The notes under the pieces are model-generated. The model saw only the letters and a program-made list of their open reading frames with translations, was not told where the DNA came from and did not search any database. A DNA stretch of 64,000 bases, taken from positions 1,995,001 through 2,059,000 of the forward strand of contig NZ_JABFHO010000001.1 in NCBI RefSeq assembly GCF_013404085.1, given 5' to 3'. Made by a program: the position numbers and the translations under genes. The stretch comes from Winogradskyella helgolandensis. GTDB lineage: Bacteria > Bacteroidota > Bacteroidia > Flavobacteriales > Flavobacteriaceae. Below are positions 36,084 through 42,518 of this stretch, piece by piece. Each line of letters begins with the position of its first letter. Within the stretch, counting starts at the first letter, position 1.

Positions 36084-36273
36084 TCACCTAGGAATTTAAA
36101 ACAAAATAATTTCGCATTGAAATGTACGAGTTTACGTGTTTGGTTTCTTAATAAAGACAAACAGTTCCAATGAGGTTTAATTGTTTTAAATAAAAACTCA
36201 CCTTTACTTATAGGTTTTGTCCAAAAATTCAAGATGAGTTTTGTTGTGTTTTTTTGTGTTCTACTGAAGGTTT

Positions 36274-36924
36274 CTAAGATAAGTTTTTCAAAGCTTCAAT
36301 AATCTCATCAGGTTCAGAACGTGTTCTATAATCAACATTAACATAGCTCCATTTAACGATTCCATCACTTCCAATTATAAAAGTGGCTGGAATAGGTAGT
36401 ATAGTATCATTTCCATTATTGATTTTTTTCAAATCGAGATTACGATCTACTCGCATATGTTCCATCAGAAATTCTGGAACTTCCCAAGCAACACCATATT
36501 GTGAGGCAACTTTAGCATCTTGATCAGATAATACGATAAAATCCATTTTACTAATTTCATCTTTTGTCAATGACCCATCCGGATGTTCAGGGCTAATGGC
36601 AATTAATGTGGCACCTAATGTCTTTATGTCGTTTAATTTTGCTTGCAAGGCTCTAAGTTGCAAATTGCAATATGGGCACCAACTACCACGATAAAATGTG
36701 ATAACAACAGGACCTTCGTTGAGAAAAGTAGATAATGATATTAATTTTTCCTGTGGGTTAGGCAACTTAAAATTTGGTGCTTTTTCTCCAATTTTAATTG
36801 CGTTTTTTCCTTGTTGAAACTCCTTTGCTTTACGAATAATATCATCAACCCCTTTCATAAAATCAGGATTGTTTTTTCGTCCCATAGCAATTTTAGCGTC
36901 CGTTTGTTCTCTTAGTTTATTCAT
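36274..36924 (-). CDS. Peroxiredoxin-like (AhpC/TSA) protein
   Basis: 216 residues, cytoplasmic. Thioredoxin fold with VVITFYRGSWCPYCNLQLRALQ: the usual peroxidatic TxxC is replaced by W-C-P-Y-C, as in the peroxiredoxin-like family that is common in Bacteroidota. Also GEKAPNFKLPNPQ at about 45-57, LIAISPEHPDG and PATFIIGSDGIVKW. Probably a thiol-dependent peroxidase; electron donor unknown. It lies at the left border of the cassette-like region and reads away from it. Confidence 0.9.
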   Translation of the reverse strand: MNKLREQTDAKIAMGRKNNPDFMKGVDDIIRKAKEFQQGKNAIKIGEKAPNFKLPNPQEKLISLSTFLNEGPVVITFYRGSWCPYCNLQLRALQAKLNDIKTLGATLIAISPEHPDGSLTKDEISKMDFIVLSDQDAKVASQYGVAWEVPEFLMEHMRVDRNLDLKKINNGNDTILPIPATFIIGSDGIVKWSYVNVDYRTRSEPDEIIEALKNLS

Positions 36925-37084
36925 TGTTTTTTTTTAATTATAGCGTGTTGTATTTCAAATGTTATAGCATATAGGTCACTAATCTATTTTTGGTAGATTC
37001 GGATTGAAAAACACTAAAATGCTAGTTAAAAATTAATAAGATTGTAATTGATTTTTTTACTCAGTACACTGTTGTCAACTAGCT

Positions 37085-37663
37085 TTATTTCATTATTTCA
37101 GTCAGATAAACAATTCCGAAAACCCAACCAACATAAAGTAGCGTATAAGCCAACGAATAAACTGCTGAAACACCAATATCTCCTTTTGTGTCCTTTGATT
37201 TGTTGAAAACGAATTTTAGTGCTCTGAAAAAAATCCAATATAGCATTGCTAAAATTATAAAGAGTGAAAACCAGAAAATAGCCTCCAAAACAATTAGCAA
37301 TAAAATTATCAAAATCGTCATTCCAATCCACAGTAAAACTGATAAAATCAGTCCTCCAATTCCGTCTCCAACCTCAATTGAAGGCGTATCAAAAGTAGGT
37401 GAAATATTTCCCATTATGTCGCCTCGTTTAAAATTCCGAAATTTAGGAAAATTATCAATCAGTCCAATTCCTTTATACAGCCCGTAAGTCATAAATAGAA
37501 AAAGAGTGGTAGCTATAATTCCGAGAGACAAATAGAGGTTAGAAGTCAGACTTCGGTTGAAGTTAATTCCTGTCAGATAAACAGTCAGAATTGTAATTCC
37601 GATTACGAGTAATGAAACTATGAAAACGGATTTTCCTTTTAAATAATTCTGTTTTATTTTCAA
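37085..37663 (-). CDS. Hypothetical membrane protein (cassette-like gene 6)
   Basis: 192 residues with about five hydrophobic helices (about 13-30, 42-62, 105-135, 128-148 and 168-187) and a short soluble loop with FRNFKRGDIMGNISPTFDTP. No family recognised. It is the last of six consecutive minus-strand genes of unknown function separated by related palindromic spacers; it ends just before a TAGTTGACAACAGTGTAC sequence that resembles the spacer ends. Confidence 0.68.
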   Translation of the reverse strand: MKIKQNYLKGKSVFIVSLLVIGITILTVYLTGINFNRSLTSNLYLSLGIIATTLFLFMTYGLYKGIGLIDNFPKFRNFKRGDIMGNISPTFDTPSIEVGDGIGGLILSVLLWIGMTILIILLLIVLEAIFWFSLFIILAMLYWIFFRALKFVFNKSKDTKGDIGVSAVYSLAYTLLYVGWVFGIVYLTEIMK

Positions 37664-37795
37664 TTCAGAGTATTTTGGTCAGCTTGTTGGCAAGTATTTA
37701 TACAGGTGATCTGTGCGGTTATGCAACTAATTTAGCAAACTTTTACAAGTAGAAAGAACAAGGCAATTAATAATAACCGGTATTGTAGGTCGTTT
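37664..37795 (-). repeat. Cassette-spacer element E1 (attC-like)
   Basis: 132 bp between two cassette-like genes. Read on the minus strand it begins near CTACAATACCGGTTATTATT and ends with TATAAATACTTGCCAACAAG; the GTTGGCAA-type core is on the plus strand at 37685-37692. It is a more diverged member of the spacer family. Confidence 0.5.
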
Positions 37796-38398
37796 TTATT
37801 CAGCAAATTCTCCACCAGATATAAAATTCAATCCAATTGTTGATATTAAAATCAACAAACAAATTGCTAATCCAACTCCTAAAATCCAACCAAAATTAAT
37901 TTCGCTCTCAATGCCATCTGATTTTATTTTCGGTTGTTTGTTGAAAAGCAATGGTATTAAACATAACATAAATCCAGTTGAGAATAAATATCTAGAAAAA
38001 AGTCTATTTCGTTGCTTATGAAATTGAGCCTTGTTAAATTGTAAATATTCAGTGCCGTTTTTACTTAAAGTTAGGATAATATCATCAATTACTCCAATTG
38101 TTAATTTATCGCCGATTTTAATATTTCTTTTAAATTGACGATGTTTTAAATATTTATAATCAATTCCAGAGATATTAAAATCAGTAGTCTTAGGATTTAA
38201 TTCTAATGAATAACTACAACTTCCTCTTCCATTACAATTTTTTCGAAATTCTGGTTCTTCGTTAAGCTCAATCGTTTTATATGTCAGATTTTCTTTTTCA
38301 TATTCAGGTGTTTGAATAAATGTAATAACTATTAAAAACAAGAACGCGAATGTTCCAATTTTAAATGTTTTCTTTTTTTCTTGCCAAGTTTTCTCCAT
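37796..38398 (-). CDS. Hypothetical membrane protein (cassette-like gene 5)
   Basis: 200 residues with three predicted helices (about 12-28, 139-153 and 170-192) and a central periplasmic or extracellular beta domain (about 35-125) containing CNGRGSCSYSLEL, a likely disulphide-bonded hairpin, and IKIGDKLTIGV. No family recognised; overall plan (helix, OB-like or beta domain, helices) resembles small DUF3592-type proteins, without firm support. The start lies 6 bp from the 58-bp repeat at 38405. Confidence 0.68.
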   Translation of the reverse strand: MEKTWQEKKKTFKIGTFAFLFLIVITFIQTPEYEKENLTYKTIELNEEPEFRKNCNGRGSCSYSLELNPKTTDFNISGIDYKYLKHRQFKRNIKIGDKLTIGVIDDIILTLSKNGTEYLQFNKAQFHKQRNRLFSRYLFSTGFMLCLIPLLFNKQPKIKSDGIESEINFGWILGVGLAICLLILISTIGLNFISGGEFAE

Positions 38399-38555
38399 TC
38401 TAAAATGTCTTGCCCTGAAATATGGCTACAGGTTAAAATTGAATTAAGCTGATAATTTATATGAGCAACAGATTTTGAGTTGCAATTCGTATGATGCTTT
38501 TTCAAAACTGTAAAATTTGCCATATGAATGCTTTTTCGATTCTATTTAGTCAATA
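38399..38555 (-). repeat. Cassette-spacer element E2 with 58-bp repeat shared with E4
   Basis: 157-bp spacer. Positions 38405-38462 match 39454-39510; 33 bases in a row are identical (38430-38462 against 39478-39510). The other part holds short repeats such as GCATTCATATGGCAAATTTT and GCATCATACG. It lies in the 5' leader of gene 5. Confidence 0.7.
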
Positions 38556-38744
38556 CTAACTGCTTGCAGTTTTGAAATTTCCAAAAATCAAAGACGTAAG
38601 TAATAATCCAATGCCAATTCCCACAAAAGAACCTTTCGCTAAATCAGGTAACTCAAAGTAATAAGAAAATACTTGTGAAGTAGCAATTACAAACATTCCG
38701 ATTGATAATAAAATTAGTGCTTTCCTTTTAGTTATTTTTTTCAT
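38556..38744 (-). CDS. Small two-helix membrane protein (cassette-like gene 4)
   Basis: 62 residues: KKITKRKALILLSIGMFVIATSQ... gives a basic start and two transmembrane helices (about 8-26 and 36-55) with a GIGIGLLLTSLIFG ending. No family recognised. Size and plan fit the small membrane proteins often found as single-gene cassettes. Weak because short, but the start, the helices and the flanking spacers support it. Confidence 0.6.
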   Translation of the reverse strand: MKKITKRKALILLSIGMFVIATSQVFSYYFELPDLAKGSFVGIGIGLLLTSLIFGNFKTASS

Positions 38745-38901
38745 GTCATTTGTGTTTTAATGATTTGTATTTCAAATCTATTATTTGTTACAGATATTTT
38801 TAAAATTATTGTCAAGGGTTGCATATAGTAATAATGTACGTACATCTAATGACGAACTAAACTAAGGATTATTTTTTTATGCGATATTAGCAAACGTTTT
38901 T
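38745..38901 (-). repeat. Cassette-spacer element E3 (attC-like)
   Basis: 157 bp. On the minus strand it starts with GTTTGCTAATATCGCATAA, which matches the E5 start TTGCCAACACCGTATAA at most positions, and it contains a CATTAGATGTACGTACAT palindrome core and a CTATATGCAACCC end. Confidence 0.6.
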
Positions 38902-39453
38902 TTAATCTACGTAACCTTGATATTCTATGAATTTTAGTTTTCCGTTTTCAAATTTAAAAATGAAAACAGATGTTTGTTCTAAATTTCCAATTTTTAATAA
39001 ATCAGTTTTAAATTCCGTTTTAATGCGATTCTCAAGTTTTTCTTTTTTTATTCCCACAAAAATAGAGTCTAAAAACTCAAAATCTGAATTCTCTATTTTA
39101 GCCGAGTAAATTGATTCCCAGTTTGTTGCTCGATAAGAATAAATTTTGGTCTTGTCAAAAGTCAGTGTCTTAATGGTGTCAGTAACTGATTCGTCGTGCG
39201 TATTACTATTGGGTTCTACTTTTAAGTCAAACTTTGGATTTAAGGCGATTTTTTCTAAATCAGATTCCAATTCAGTTAATAAGCTATCATTTTCAAAATA
39301 CTGTTCAGGTATTACAATTTCCTCAATCTGTTTTTTCGGTACAGCTTTTAATTCCATCGTTGGTTTTACTTCAATCGATTCCGCTTTTTGGATTTCCTTT
39401 TGTTTACAAGAAACTATCAGAATTAGCATTAAAATTGGTAGCTGTCTTTTCAT
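38902..39453 (-). CDS. Hypothetical lipoprotein (cassette-like gene 3)
   Basis: 183 residues. Lipoprotein signal MKRQLPILMLILIVSCKQKE (Cys about 16) followed by a charged linker and a mixed alpha/beta domain (about 95-183) with SIFVGIKKEKLENRI and VFIFKFENGKLKFIEYQGY, which looks like the small periplasmic domain that monitors calcium or ligand in some cassette lipoproteins, but no family was recognised. The ATG is directly next to the 58-bp repeat of E4 (39454). Confidence 0.72.
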   Translation of the reverse strand: MKRQLPILMLILIVSCKQKEIQKAESIEVKPTMELKAVPKKQIEEIVIPEQYFENDSLLTELESDLEKIALNPKFDLKVEPNSNTHDESVTDTIKTLTFDKTKIYSYRATNWESIYSAKIENSDFEFLDSIFVGIKKEKLENRIKTEFKTDLLKIGNLEQTSVFIFKFENGKLKFIEYQGYVD

Positions 39454-39536
39454 ATGTCTTGTCCGAAGTAATGCTATAGGTTAAAATTGAATTAAGCTGA
39501 TAATTTATATACGATATCGGCTGTAGTTTTTTATAT
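39454..39536 (-). repeat. Cassette-spacer element E4 with 58-bp repeat shared with E2
   Basis: 83 bp. On the minus strand it begins AGCCGATATCGTATATAA, aligned with the E3 and E5 starts, and continues into the block that is repeated in E2. Gene 2's TGA stop and gene 3's ATG bracket it exactly. Confidence 0.7.
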
Positions 39537-39977
39537 TCAACTTTTAATTTCTATGTCGTTATTATTTTTTAACGCAATATTCTTAAATTCTTCAAAATAT
39601 TTTGAATTCCAGCGAGGCCATATTCTAATGGACTTTTTAATATTATTCCTATCTCGATAATATATTTTCCATATGTCACGATCATTAATTTCAGCAAGTG
39701 TTTTTTTTATTTTCAGAATATTTTTGAAGGATATTTTTTCATCTGAATTTTTTGATGAAATGAACAAGTATTCATTGTCAAATTCAATTGATTTACCTTT
39801 ATCAAAAACAAAGTATAATCCAGTAAGTAGGAAAATAAATATAGTCAAAATTCCGATTGCTAAAATGTCATCCTTATTTTCAGTCAAAATTTTAATAGCG
39901 ATTCCAACCATTAAAATTCCAATAATAATTGGAACATATTTCCAATTTCTTGTATTTGTTGATATTCGTTTCCTCAT
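39537..39977 (-). CDS. Hypothetical membrane protein with PH-like domain (cassette-like gene 2)
   Basis: 146 residues: two helices (about 14-30 and 39-58) followed by a beta domain (about 62-140: FDNEYLFISSKNSDEKISFKNI, WKIYYRDRNN, IRIWPRWNSKYFEEFKNIAL) whose layout is that of bacterial PH-like domain proteins. No closer family recognised. Lys/Asn/Ile-rich composition, like its cassette-like neighbours. Confidence 0.7.
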   Translation of the reverse strand: MRKRISTNTRNWKYVPIIIGILMVGIAIKILTENKDDILAIGILTIFIFLLTGLYFVFDKGKSIEFDNEYLFISSKNSDEKISFKNILKIKKTLAEINDRDIWKIYYRDRNNIKKSIRIWPRWNSKYFEEFKNIALKNNNDIEIKS

Positions 39978-39990
39978 TTTCTAGATTACG

Positions 39991-40115
39991 GCCAATGTTG
40001 TTGTATATGGTTTGTTTAAGTAGTGAATTTACTAAATAAAACACGAACGTCAAAATTCCTAAGGAATTTTAAGGGTGGACTAGAACGAGCAATAAAGTTT
40101 ATACGGTGTTGGCAA
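39991..40115 (-). repeat. Cassette-spacer element E5 (best attC-like copy)
   Basis: 125 bp. The minus strand begins TTGCCAACACCGTATAAAC and ends CATATACAACAACATTGGC, so the ends form an imperfect inverted repeat (GCCAA/TTGGC outside, GTATA/TATAC inside). Near the centre is a perfect hairpin AAAATTCCT-A-AGGAATTTT (40052-40070). This architecture, with paired short outer and inner boxes around a variable loop, is like integron attC sites, although the boxes do not match the classical RYYYAAC/GTTRRRY exactly. Confidence 0.6.
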
Positions 40116-40124
40116 TTTGGCTTT

Positions 40125-40877
40125 TTATTCAACTAATTTTAATTCAGTTCGTTTTGTCTTTTTTAGGTATTCAATATTTAAATCGGTTAAATTCCATAAG
40201 TAAATTCGATTATTCGTTTTGCTCAAAATTCCAAATTCCGATATAATTTTCTTTTGTCCAGAATTCGTTAAATGTGATTCGTTTATATAATTAATTGGAT
40301 ATAAGTTTTTTATTATTCCGTTTAGAATTTCAACTTTATTTGAATTCCAAGTATGGTCTTTTTCTAAAATATTAACGGAAGTTGAAAACAATCCTTTTTT
40401 CATTTTTCTTTCAGTTCCTGAATCAAAATTCGAGTCAAGTTTTGTTGTATATCCATAATCAAAACCTAATTCGTCAATTAAAATTCTATTAAATTCTAAA
40501 ATTGATTTTTCATTACAATATTCTGTGCTTAATTGTAGACAAAAGTCAATTGTTGATTTTTCAGGTTTCTCTTTTAGATTCAACATTTGATTGCTGATAG
40601 AAAAATATGTTTCGGTTGTTTCAGAATTAAAACCGACAAAGCAATAAACTAATTCCTTATTTGATTTAAGTGCTTTTTCAAAACCACTTTTAGTTTTGTA
40701 GATTGATTGATAATTAATGTCAAACGATTTTGCTTTAAGTTCAGACATTTTTTCAATTTGTTTAATGCAGAATAGAATTTTAGATTCCATTTCAAACATT
40801 TCTGCGGATTTTTCGTCAGTTAGTTTGAATAGTTTAATTATCCAATTCTTTGTTCTGTTTTTCATTAGGAACTTCAT
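40125..40877 (-). CDS. Hypothetical cytoplasmic protein (cassette-like gene 1)
   Basis: 250 residues, no signal or helix; ATG 40865 (MKNRTKNW) is an alternative start five codons in. Mixed alpha/beta with segments KELVYCFVGFNSETTETYFSISNQM, NRILIDELGFDYGYTTKLDS and a C-terminal NRIYLWNLTDLNIEYLKK. No family recognised. First gene of the cassette-like run; the GTTGGCAAC core of spacer E6 lies 10 bp upstream. Confidence 0.7.
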   Translation of the reverse strand: MKFLMKNRTKNWIIKLFKLTDEKSAEMFEMESKILFCIKQIEKMSELKAKSFDINYQSIYKTKSGFEKALKSNKELVYCFVGFNSETTETYFSISNQMLNLKEKPEKSTIDFCLQLSTEYCNEKSILEFNRILIDELGFDYGYTTKLDSNFDSGTERKMKKGLFSTSVNILEKDHTWNSNKVEILNGIIKNLYPINYINESHLTNSGQKKIISEFGILSKTNNRIYLWNLTDLNIEYLKKTKRTELKLVE

Positions 40878-41222
40878 TTTAAGATTGTTGCCAACTAGTT
40901 ATATAATAACTTTTATTACCGATATCCCGTAAAGATAACAGGTAAATAAACTATAACAAGGTAAAAGTTTTGAGGCTCATGTGTTTATGTTTTCTGCCAT
41001 TTTAGGATCTTACTTCAGCTTTAGTAAACATAGGCATGCTATTCGCTATTAATTAAACGCGTGTAAATTAGCATATTGAACATACCTGTTTCATAATAAG
41101 TTGCCAATATCGTAATCTCCCAAGAAATTAGCTGTAACTTCGCGCCAAATTAAAGGAGTGACCTAAATACTATTTCAAGTAAGGAATAATAAATTATAGA
41201 GTTTGCTTCATAAACTTTATAT
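40878..41222. repeat. 345-bp gap: spacer element E6, array border and rhlE leader
   Basis: The minus strand ends ...TATATAACTAGTTGGCAAC at 40887-40895, with GATATCGGTAATAAAAG behind it. A second core, GTTGCCAATATCGTAATC on the plus strand at 41100-41117, mirrors the TTGCCAACACCGTAT start of E5, so about 200 bp between them may be a gene-less or decayed cassette. From about 41120 the sequence is the rhlE leader. Confidence 0.5.
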
Positions 41223-42518
41223 ATGTCATTTAAATCTTTGGGCCTATCTGAGCCTTTACTTAAAGCTATCCAGAAAAAAGGATACGAAACACCTTCTCCA
41301 ATTCAAGCAAAAGCCATTCCTCCTGTATTAGAAGGAAGAGATGTTTTAGCTTCAGCACAAACCGGAACAGGAAAAACGGCTGGTTTTACACTACCGTTGC
41401 TTCACTTGTTGTCTGATCATACTGCTCAAAGGCACAGACCTATTAGAGCTTTAATCTTAACTCCAACACGTGAGTTGGCAGCGCAAGTTTTTGCGAATGT
41501 AAAAGAGTATAGCGAGTTCTTAAATATAAGAAGTGCGGTTATTTTTGGTGGAGTCAACCAGAAACCGCAAGTCAATAAATTAAGTCAAGGTGTCGATGTT
41601 TTAGTGGCGACTCCAGGACGTTTAATAGATTTAGAAAATCAAGGAGTTTTATCTTTAAATAAAGTAGAGATATTTGTTTTAGATGAAGCCGATCGTATGT
41701 TAGATATGGGGTTTTTGCGTGATATTGAACGCGTTATGAAATTAATGCCAGCTAAGCGACAAAATTTGATGTTCTCAGCAACGTTTTCTAAAGATATTAA
41801 GAAATTAGCCTATTCAATTCTTAATAATCCAGTGCAAGTTGAAGCGACTCCAGAAAATACAGCGGTTGAAGTTATTGAACAAAAGGTTTACAGAGTTGCT
41901 AAAGGCAAGAAAACAGACTTAATTATTAAATTAATTACTGAAGGTAATTGGAAACAAGTACTAGTTTTTAATAGAACAAAACATGGCGCCAACAAGCTTT
42001 GTAAAAAAATGATTAGTGCTGGTATTACGGCTGCTGCTATTCATGGTAATAAAAGTCAAGGAGCAAGAACAAAAGCGTTAGCCGGATTTAAAAATGGATC
42101 GGTTAGGGTTTTAGTAGCTACAGATATTGCAGCGCGAGGTTTAGATATTCCTTTACTACCACATGTTATAAATTTTGAATTACCTAATATTTCTGAAGAC
42201 TACGTGCATAGAATTGGTAGAACAGGTAGAGCAGGAGCCAGTGGAGAAGCTATTTCTTTGGTTAGCGCAGATGAAACGACATATTTGCGAGATATTGAGA
42301 AATTAATTGATATGAAGATTGAAGTTGAAATCCTTGAAGGATTTGAACCCGATCCTAATGCTTCAACAGAACCTATAAAACCAGGTCAGAATAGAAATCA
42401 AGGACGCGGAAGAGGTTCTAATAATAAAAATTCGGGAAACTCAGGGAAGTCTAAAAGCTCGAGTTCAGACCGAAATAAAAGTAGAAGTCGTAGTAGAAAC
42501 AACGATAGTAGACGTTAA
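41223..42518 (+). CDS. rhlE: DEAD-box RNA helicase, RhlE type
   Basis: 431 residues. All helicase motifs are present: Q-motif region [59 protein letters not shown], then [15 protein letters not shown] and [10 protein letters not shown]. The C-terminal tail (about 385-431) is Arg/Gly/Ser/Asn-rich and likely binds RNA. It unwinds RNA in ribosome assembly or cold adaptation. The small gene at 42522 follows 3 bp later. Confidence 0.96.

Follow-up and report, generated by a model that had tools for sequence, protein, structure and literature searches.

A worn, integrase-less cassette array in Winogradskyella helgolandensis: probable outlier of an integron system of the Bacteroidia type

Background

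Integrons are generally understood as an IntI recombinase together with classical attC sites, for which crossover rules are known. In the sedentary chromosomal integrons (superintegrons) an integrase gene and an attI site are joined to a long array of single-ORF cassettes, and CALINs, as IntegronFinder defines them, are matches to the published attC covariance model with no integrase nearby. Xer proteins act at dif sites, where they resolve dimers of the chromosome; they are not known to keep cassette arrays. The portions available to us of the open-licence PMC literature, preprints aside (PMC9668308, PMC8618304, PMC9024848, PMC2426708), contain no description of a non-IntI integron in Bacteroidia, and in the corresponding part of the IntegronFinder 2.0 survey a single complete Bacteroidetes integron is named, that of Salinibacter ruber M1 (PMC9024848).

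Here we analyze a stretch of 64,000 nucleotides from the genome of Winogradskyella helgolandensis (the window), for which a sequence-only reading had proposed a run of integron-like cassettes with non-classical boxes, possibly belonging to a Bacteroidota-specific system. Genome-wide tests and sister genomes support this proposal and refine it, in that the whole form, complete with integrase and attI-like site, lies elsewhere in the genome and the array of the window is itself worn.

Results and discussion

The six-gene block of the window

All six minus-strand ORFs on which the sequence-only reading was based are present at the coordinates it gave (Table 1), as are the strings quoted in it; all six stay below the Pfam cut-offs, in agreement with its view that they lack a recognisable family, and the five gaps, put there at 80-160 bp, measure 83-157 bp. 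A covariance model (R1), built on 41 clear sites from other parts of this genome, was used for an unfiltered scan of positions 36500-41500 of the window. Its four best matches (of 41) are all minus-strand and lie in four of the five gaps, two of them clear and two weak when taken alone. The claim of related sequence in every gap needs qualifying for the gap at 38399-38555, which the model leaves unmatched and which has a 46-bp repeat in common with the gap at 39465-39510. The clearest site, at 39985-40119, also scores 70.8 bits (E 1.5e-11) in a search of 44 sources. As a relaxed arm scan of the window yields many chance 8/10 pairs, the arm pair of the first cassette draws its weight only from its position.

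Table 1. Features of the strain-specific block, in coordinates of the window
Feature	Position	Strand	Remarks
Strain-specific block: peroxiredoxin-like gene and six-gene array	36084..41122	.	Ends approximate; between rhlE and a gene that we take, from reading its sequence, to be TspO-like
Mirrored core GTTGCCAATATCGTA, right border of block	41100..41114	+	String present in sequence
Start arm of first cassette, GTTGGCAACA (from 40895)	40886..40895	-	8/10 complementary to end arm AATTGCCAAC at 40117-40108
Cassette ORF, 250 aa	40125..40877	-	No Pfam family
attC-like site, clearest of window	39985..40119	-	R1 70.9 bits, E 1.4e-13
Cassette ORF of 146 aa that looks membrane-like	39537..39977	-	No Pfam family over cut-off
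Degenerate attC-like site with GCCGATATCGTATATAA as its left half	39434..39527	-	R1 11.6 bits, E 0.17, rank 4/41
Cassette ORF of 183 aa whose start looks lipoprotein-like	38902..39453	-	ORF list and Pfam scan
Degenerate attC-like site, TTGCTAATATCGCATAA ... ATATGCAACCCTTGACAA	38805..38897	-	R1 11.8 bits, E 0.15, rank 3/41
Cassette ORF of 62 aa that looks membrane-like	38556..38744	-	ORF list and Pfam scan
Gap without site-model match	38399..38555	-	Holds 46-bp repeat (91%), also in gap at 39465-39510
Cassette ORF of 200 aa that looks membrane-like	37796..38398	-	No Pfam family over cut-off
attC-like site, partly decayed	37683..37803	-	R1 23.9 bits, E 5e-4
Cassette ORF of 192 aa that looks membrane-like	37085..37663	-	No Pfam family

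The window holds no match to the IntI profile, just as no integrase had been visible to the sequence-only reading, and the likely integrase lies ~2.3 Mb from the block on the same contig. In tblastn searches against the array loci examined the six genes found no copy in another array; the sole match, for 4/6 genes, was L001, which is the overlap with the window itself. The comparison with sister strains that had been suggested shows the block to be missing at the rhlE border in 8/8 sister genomes examined. The flanking TspO-like gene and rhlE stand 132-158 bp apart in seven of these and 2.3 kb apart in the eighth (G010), against 5.1 kb in W. helgolandensis, and tblastn (E 1e-5) over ~16-kb stretches of the eight genomes recovered neither the six genes nor the peroxiredoxin. 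Read by eye, similarity to the sister genomes upstream of rhlE ends about the mirrored core near 41100. The six-gene row is a worn cassette array, which resembles a CALIN, as do several other arrays of this genome, in having sites and cassettes with no such integrase alongside, but differs in having sites that depart from the classical consensus.

Recurrence of the sites and structure of the cassettes

A search of the full genome for more spacers of this kind shows that the family recurs, with at least 150 sites, mostly of ~125 bp and set in arrays of one orientation. The wider pattern lies far above chance, with 40 matches to GCCAACACNGTATAW genome-wide versus 4 for the reversed control. One array that reaches the end of contig C1 probably resumes where C2 starts, but the arms at this break fail to match each other. 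A search of two array loci (L009 and L016; 40 kb) with Rfam models returned a chance hit and nothing relevant.

The genes sit between inverted ends of the form GTTnnnnnn...nnnnnnAAC. In an unselected test of neighbours, whose 122 candidates include one overlapping double, complementarity between the right end of a site and the left end of its successor was seen in 101 of 110 cases (shuffles: mean 7.9, maximum 17). Pairing ends are found in 116 of 120 cassettes, so that a circle would rebuild one attC; in these 116, which were picked for at least 5 of 6 arm matches, so that arm positions 3-8 are biased upward, 773 of 812 base pairs are formed. As proposed from the window, the boxes are unlike the classical ones, with GTTRRRY and RYYYAAC each fitting only 4/116 cassettes. 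Duplicated cassettes begin at GTT, the same cassette is found in copies with different neighbours, and gene-length units are copied between arrays. As a rule each cassette carries one main ORF (at least 60 aa in 98/116), and a Pfam scan of 93 of these 98, the other five having been set aside manually, placed at most two in any one family.

Folding of the single strands, which had been suggested as a check, predicts arms that fold and covary. The predicted R stem has 9-10 bp and contains a C.A mismatch that is almost invariant, the L box covaries, and the bottom strand is predicted to be the more stable in 107 of 108. The unpaired spacer is 3/6 nt in 72 cases (the next commonest form has 15), 36 of them from the W. 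helgolandensis genome, and some relatives prefer a 4/7, 2/5, 2/6 or 3/5 spacer. The mutually pairing ends, structured sites of ~125 bp, better-folding bottom strand and GTT/AAC at the presumed crossover are all shared with superintegrons, whereas the rarity of classical R boxes, the length and mismatch of the R stem and the asymmetric spacer set the Bacteroidia sites apart.

Two identical 1.2-kb IS110-family elements are present at the same position inside two attC-like sites. They recall IS1111-attC, the attC-targeting elements of the IS110 family, except that the sites hit here are non-classical.

The array-linked recombinase and its attI-like site

The search for a tyrosine recombinase proposed on the basis of the window led to a gene for a protein of 375 aa (G000:C1:4327165-4328289) that heads an array, which begins directly behind it. 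An attI-like dyad, GGATATA...TATATCC-AATT-GTT, directly follows the stop codon, and different first cassettes lie behind near-identical attI in different strains. The recombinase gene shares the direction of its array and has the attI-like site past its own stop codon, an arrangement unlike that of superintegrons. Among 15 loci examined, a GTT with paired first-cassette arms lies 39-82 bp past the int stop (152 in Rufibacter) in 11 and was not found in L039, L040, L041 and L105; some other GTTs in the post-int stretches also matched, and these we take as chance. The duplicated cassettes and strain-specific first cassettes, as sequences, would be consistent with attC x attC or attC x attI exchange.

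The four array-linked proteins scored with the IntI profile TIGR02249 reach 187-215 bits (cut-off 265). The distance from K to RHS is 67 residues in 12/12 array-linked proteins versus 109 in 11/11 IntI (measured in 12 of 13 and in 11 of 12 fetched loci, respectively), and 68 by eye in the 13th array-linked protein, L108; the array-linked recombinases thus lack the IntI insertion. In a tree of 82 rows, 11 IntI group together at 100/100 and the 13 array-linked integrases form a separate branch (91/94). Three of four proteins pass the 220-bit cut-off of the XerA family NF040815 (239.5, 230.5 and 220.2 bits; the fourth has 209.2), the highest score being that of the 375-aa protein itself, which among proteins of solved structure is closest to archaeal ones of XerA type and to IntI4. 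A further difference from the superintegron enzymes is an extra N-terminal domain of ~95 aa, which a Rufibacter ORF of 489 aa (L091) also seems to contain. Its residues ~1-78 show weak fold and profile similarity, below firm thresholds, to the HARP domain of SMARCAL1 and the N-terminal domain of XPB, and it may be HARP/XPB-like, although those domains sit on helicases and this one on a recombinase.

Spread in Bacteroidia and on plasmids

Relatives of the recombinase occur in 118/295 Bacteroidia genomes, the linkage of this recombinase group to a downstream array and attI-like dyad recurs in several families, and the whole-form layout is found again in other Bacteroidia. One link search covered 35 of 80 loci, mostly Bacteroidota, and another, run over all 80 with stricter settings, returned 35 links on + and 1 on -. 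Links were also present in 11 of 20 loci hand-picked, by length of contig, from the list of recombinase relatives; nine "downstream minus" links in these 20 are the expected mirror readings of near-palindromic sites. Plasmids gave a mixed picture. On the Rufibacter tibetensis plasmid NZ_CP012644 a script found a first-cassette arm pair, one link at 5/6 and an R1 match of 25.1 bits, with further paired ends seen by eye and no link returned by the strict detector. The Chryseobacterium plasmid NZ_CP041688 has one link and R1 matches of 36.6 and 30.3 bits, and the Persicobacter plasmid CP012862 no link and an R1 match of 36.2 bits.

Interpretation

The system has the anatomy of an integron, and we infer that recombination is carried out by the 375-aa protein. 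We regard it as very likely that the six genes of the window are a worn, integrase-less outlier of an integron of the Bacteroidia type, whose cassettes are moved by its own recombinase. That the block is instead an ordinary IntI-type integron or CALIN with diverged attC sites would be compatible with the like overall anatomy and with the frequency of canonical IntI in the phylum (84/296 genomes over the cut-off). However, the W. helgolandensis genome has no IntI over the cut-off, only G095 among the 85 phylum genomes with an IntI match belongs to Bacteroidia (whose share of the 296 is unlisted), the array-linked integrases lack the insertion and fall in another branch, and the boxes are non-classical; hence this explanation appears highly improbable. 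The IntI profile, clade and R-box tests all came out negative, and a classical integron was rejected on them.

The sites are palindromic, AT-rich and repeated, and many fall outside the main arrays, as would suit dispersed intergenic repeats, MITE-like or terminators, that trail single genes with no movement of cassettes. A plain repeat would not, however, give complementarity between the right end of one site and the left end of the next, by which this candidate was rejected, nor would it give a uniform orientation within each array, the copying of gene-length units from one array to another or an attI with differing first cassettes, and we give it very little credence. There is also scarcely any likelihood, in our estimate, that the cassettes are real but moved by another recombinase, either XerC/XerD of the host or an integrase from a plasmid or phage, the 375-aa protein being a mere neighbor. 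The arrays at C1:2.22-2.25, 2.76-2.79, 3.95-3.96 and 4.157-4.174 Mb have no adjoining IntI-profile match and two further arrays have other recombinases nearby, which would fit such a mover; against it, the recombinase group is tied to downstream arrays and the attI-like dyad across families, and XerC/XerD lie elsewhere in the genome and in a different branch of the tree.

In the Bacteroidia-type integron a cassette starts with GTTRnnnnn and ends with nnnnnYAAC, followed by the hairpin site of ~125 bp. We propose a model in which the bottom strand of the circular cassette would fold into a hairpin with an R stem of 9-10 bp, an unpaired spacer of 3/6 nt and an L stem of 6 bp; the recombinase would bind R and L, cut beside GTT and join the cut GTT to attI or to another attC. 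The N-terminal domain, possibly HARP/XPB-like, would aid the recognition of folded or branched DNA, as a substitute for the insertion specific to IntI. Isolated sites and short arrays elsewhere, including that of the window, would have arisen by secondary-site integration or by breakage of arrays.

Conclusions

On balance, and with less assurance than for the window itself, we favor the view that integrons arose more than once, and that in Bacteroidia an XerA-like recombinase with a HARP/XPB-like domain for branched DNA, rather than IntI, runs a widespread system with its own attI and hairpin attC, with arrays of at least 100 cassettes that include defence genes, and also on plasmids. If true, such a parallel system would mean large cassette reservoirs that standard profiles would be expected to miss, and a second solution to the recombination of folded single-stranded DNA, by comparison with which one could test what the IntI insertion and hairpin polarity do. 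It could also explain many orphan genes of flavobacterial genomes and why some flavobacterial assemblies break at repeats, and could offer a store of candidate anti-phage genes.

A genome-wide family of attC-like sites

Taken by itself the window is ambiguous, and the decisive evidence is found in the remainder of the W. helgolandensis genome. Repeats shared between the gaps of the six-gene block are mostly short, with one 46-bp pair as the sole exception. A search of the whole genome, as the sequence-only reading had proposed, showed similar spacers elsewhere: with at most one mismatch allowed, the 15-base spacer core GCCAACACNGTATAW was recovered 26 + 14 times, and its reversed control 2 + 2 times. 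Clusters of a single orientation contain many of these matches, and the regions fetched around them hold long rows of sites, mostly of 122-128 bp. A covariance model (R1) built from 41 sites of these rows detects at least 150 sites in the genome. Two arrays on contig C1 (2.22-2.25 and 2.76-2.79 Mb) include sites lengthened by an extra stretch of ~26 nt (ACCCGAGCGCAGCGAACAGACGAAG or near) adjoining the right stem, in about 8 of the 21 sites listed. The assembly break between the end of C1 (4356360) and the start of contig C2 lies within an apparent single array.

At the left end of a site, the bases preceding AAC are reverse-complementary to those that follow GTT at the right end of its predecessor. 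Such arms match at 5 or 6 of 6 positions in 101 of 110 neighbouring pairs at most 4 kb apart (1000 shuffles: mean 7.85, maximum 17), and within a single site the left and right arms match in just 8 of 122; a second detector found paired arms in 116 of 120. Because arms pair between neighbouring sites and rarely within one, the unit is GTTnnnnnn-gene-nnnnnnAAC plus site, like integron cassettes. Across 116 cassettes the median unit is 695.5 bp, and the longest ORF spans a median 88% of it and runs in the array direction in 103.

Circularisation of the units by script restored one long hairpin, in which 773 of 812 cells at R-arm offsets 3-9 are paired (shuffled mean 316, maximum 370), although these 116 cassettes were selected for arm matches and the unselected test is the neighbour count. 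In the circularised units four matched, covarying forms of the L box occur, and the unpaired spacer is asymmetric, with 3 nt facing 6 nt. A C.A mismatch at R-arm offset 10 (99/116) and an A.C mismatch at the first base inside the L box (116/116) could be marks of strand polarity. In folds of the circularised sites, the bottom strand was predicted to be more stable in 107/108. The boxes are indeed non-classical, with GTTRRRY and RYYYAAC each fitting 4/116 cassettes; their sole general part is GTTR (115/116).

The associated tyrosine recombinase

The proposed search for a tyrosine recombinase was productive: the best match of the IntI profile in the whole genome, albeit under the cut-off, is a 375-aa ORF directed into an array. 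Directly 3' of its stop codon lies an attI-like dyad, GTGGATATA...TATATCC-AATT-GTT, followed by a first cassette with paired ends GTTGTAAGT...ACTTACAAC. A dyad recurs among relatives and the cassette after it varies; loci L037 and L038 share the same 45 nt past the stop codon (to GTTGT), after which their first cassettes differ. First-cassette arms are paired in 11/15 loci. They were not found in L039, L040 and L041 (~1.5 kb downstream each) or in L105, and partners at some other GTTs in these stretches are taken as chance.

Coordinates of recombinase ORFs and IS elements in W. helgolandensis
Feature	Position	Remark
Integrase, 375 aa	C1:4327165-4328289	heads a cassette array
Tyrosine recombinase ORF	C1:1009097	close to array region
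Tyrosine recombinase ORF	C2:45280	close to array region
IS110-family element	L014:2909-3901 (C1:4.29 Mb)	just ahead of terminal CACGTT
IS110-family element	L016:15520-16512 (C1:4.35 Mb)	just ahead of terminal CACGTT

Signs of movement

Seven cassette pairs are near copies end to end (95-100%, BLAST), with unrelated neighbours in 7/7 (0.52-0.64 over 170 bases). The attached site was copied along in five pairs (>=0.97) and differs in two (0.62, 0.75). As the sites before the copies share family-level similarity (0.61-0.91), the break at GTT is placed by the changed neighbours and spacer bases, not by a total loss of similarity. Two identical 1.2-kb IS110-family elements occupy the same position within two different attC-like sites, and represent an IS that targets attC in a system of non-classical type.

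Distribution among relatives

R1 sites are present in 37/37 same-genus genomes searched and in 4/23 others of the order. Of the named relatives retrieved for the integrase, the closest is from Winogradskyella ursingii (71%). Among named loci, R1 sites lie 3' of the integrase on the same strand in Winogradskyella, Seonamhaeicola, Aequorivita, Algibacter and an unclassified Flavobacteriaceae; weak matches occur in others, a single weak match lies upstream, and three hits are mirror readings. A sequence-blind detector, whose sole inputs are AAC/GTT, the L stem and matching arms, found 40 downstream plus-strand links in 35 loci, versus 1 upstream plus, 2 downstream minus and 1 upstream minus. At least three links occur in 7/35, including Rufibacter with ~60-bp sites, and none in 26/35. 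Twenty additional loci, hand-picked out of a class search, gave 22 downstream plus versus 2 upstream plus links (9 downstream minus, 0 upstream minus), with at least one link in 11/20; one locus lacks downstream sequence. Eleven loci from the two sets combined have >9 kb downstream yet no link, and therefore the recombinase group is broader than the members heading recognisable arrays. Recombinase relatives occur in 118/295 Bacteroidia genomes at E <= 1e-80, a threshold that is no proof of an array in each. The 3/6 spacer is the most frequent geometry overall (72 versus 15 for the runner-up), half of the 72 coming from W. helgolandensis.

The Rufibacter loci L091 and L212 share the layout with sites of only ~60 bp and GC-rich centres; the L091 recombinase ORF has 489 aa and seems to contain the N-terminal domain twice. 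Integrase relatives are plasmid-borne in L211 (Chryseobacterium NZ_CP041688) and L212 (Rufibacter tibetensis NZ_CP012644), where small genes follow, mostly on the same strand; annotation places IS110 transposases on the two plasmids, and on L211 also a group II intron reverse transcriptase. Relatives' contigs end within 4 kb past the integrase in 6/20 (L193, L194, L195, L198, L204, L209), perhaps due to repeats.

The six-gene block

The six minus-strand ORFs with five gaps of 83-157 bp are present as described, and 0/6 exceed a Pfam cut-off, in keeping with the claimed lack of recognisable families. The claim of related sequence in every gap stands for four, two of them weak on their own: R1, run unfiltered over 36500-41500, scores them 70.9, 23.9, 11.8 and 11.6 bits, all on the minus strand (ranks 1-4 of 41 matches), and does not match the fifth. 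In eight sister genomes chosen by closest rhlE, tblastn found no match to the six genes or the peroxiredoxin in the ~16-kb rhlE stretches compared (0/8); the sequence-only reading had proposed to compare gene content at this border. The distance from rhlE to the TspO-like gene is 132-158 bp in 7/8 and 2.3 kb in G010. A close peroxiredoxin occurs in 6/37 genomes, W. helgolandensis included. Since the compared stretches of the sisters lack the block genes and R1 matches only four of five gaps, the block is a strain-specific insertion, decayed by now. It may have arrived by integrase action at a secondary site, or by the breaking up of a larger array.

Relation to known integrons

Canonical IntI exceeds the cut-off in 84/296 phylum genomes; any IntI match extends to 85, of which only G095 belongs to Bacteroidia. 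A review names Bacteroidota among integron-bearing phyla (PMC8618304), archaeal integrons are described as retaining the IntI domain (PMC9668308), and a single complete integron is named for Bacteroidetes in the IntegronFinder 2.0 survey, in Salinibacter ruber M1 (PMC9024848). Our searches of the open-licence PMC literature list no study of a Bacteroidia integron of non-IntI type, preprints being outside this scope. The W. helgolandensis system resembles integrons in anatomy yet lies outside the IntI family.

Among 93 cassette proteins scanned, each Pfam family is matched by at most two. PADLOC profiles match some of them, under names including PD-T4-6, AriA, AbiJ and capP, which are annotations. 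Judged by these matches, the cargo would fit an accessory store including some putative anti-phage genes.
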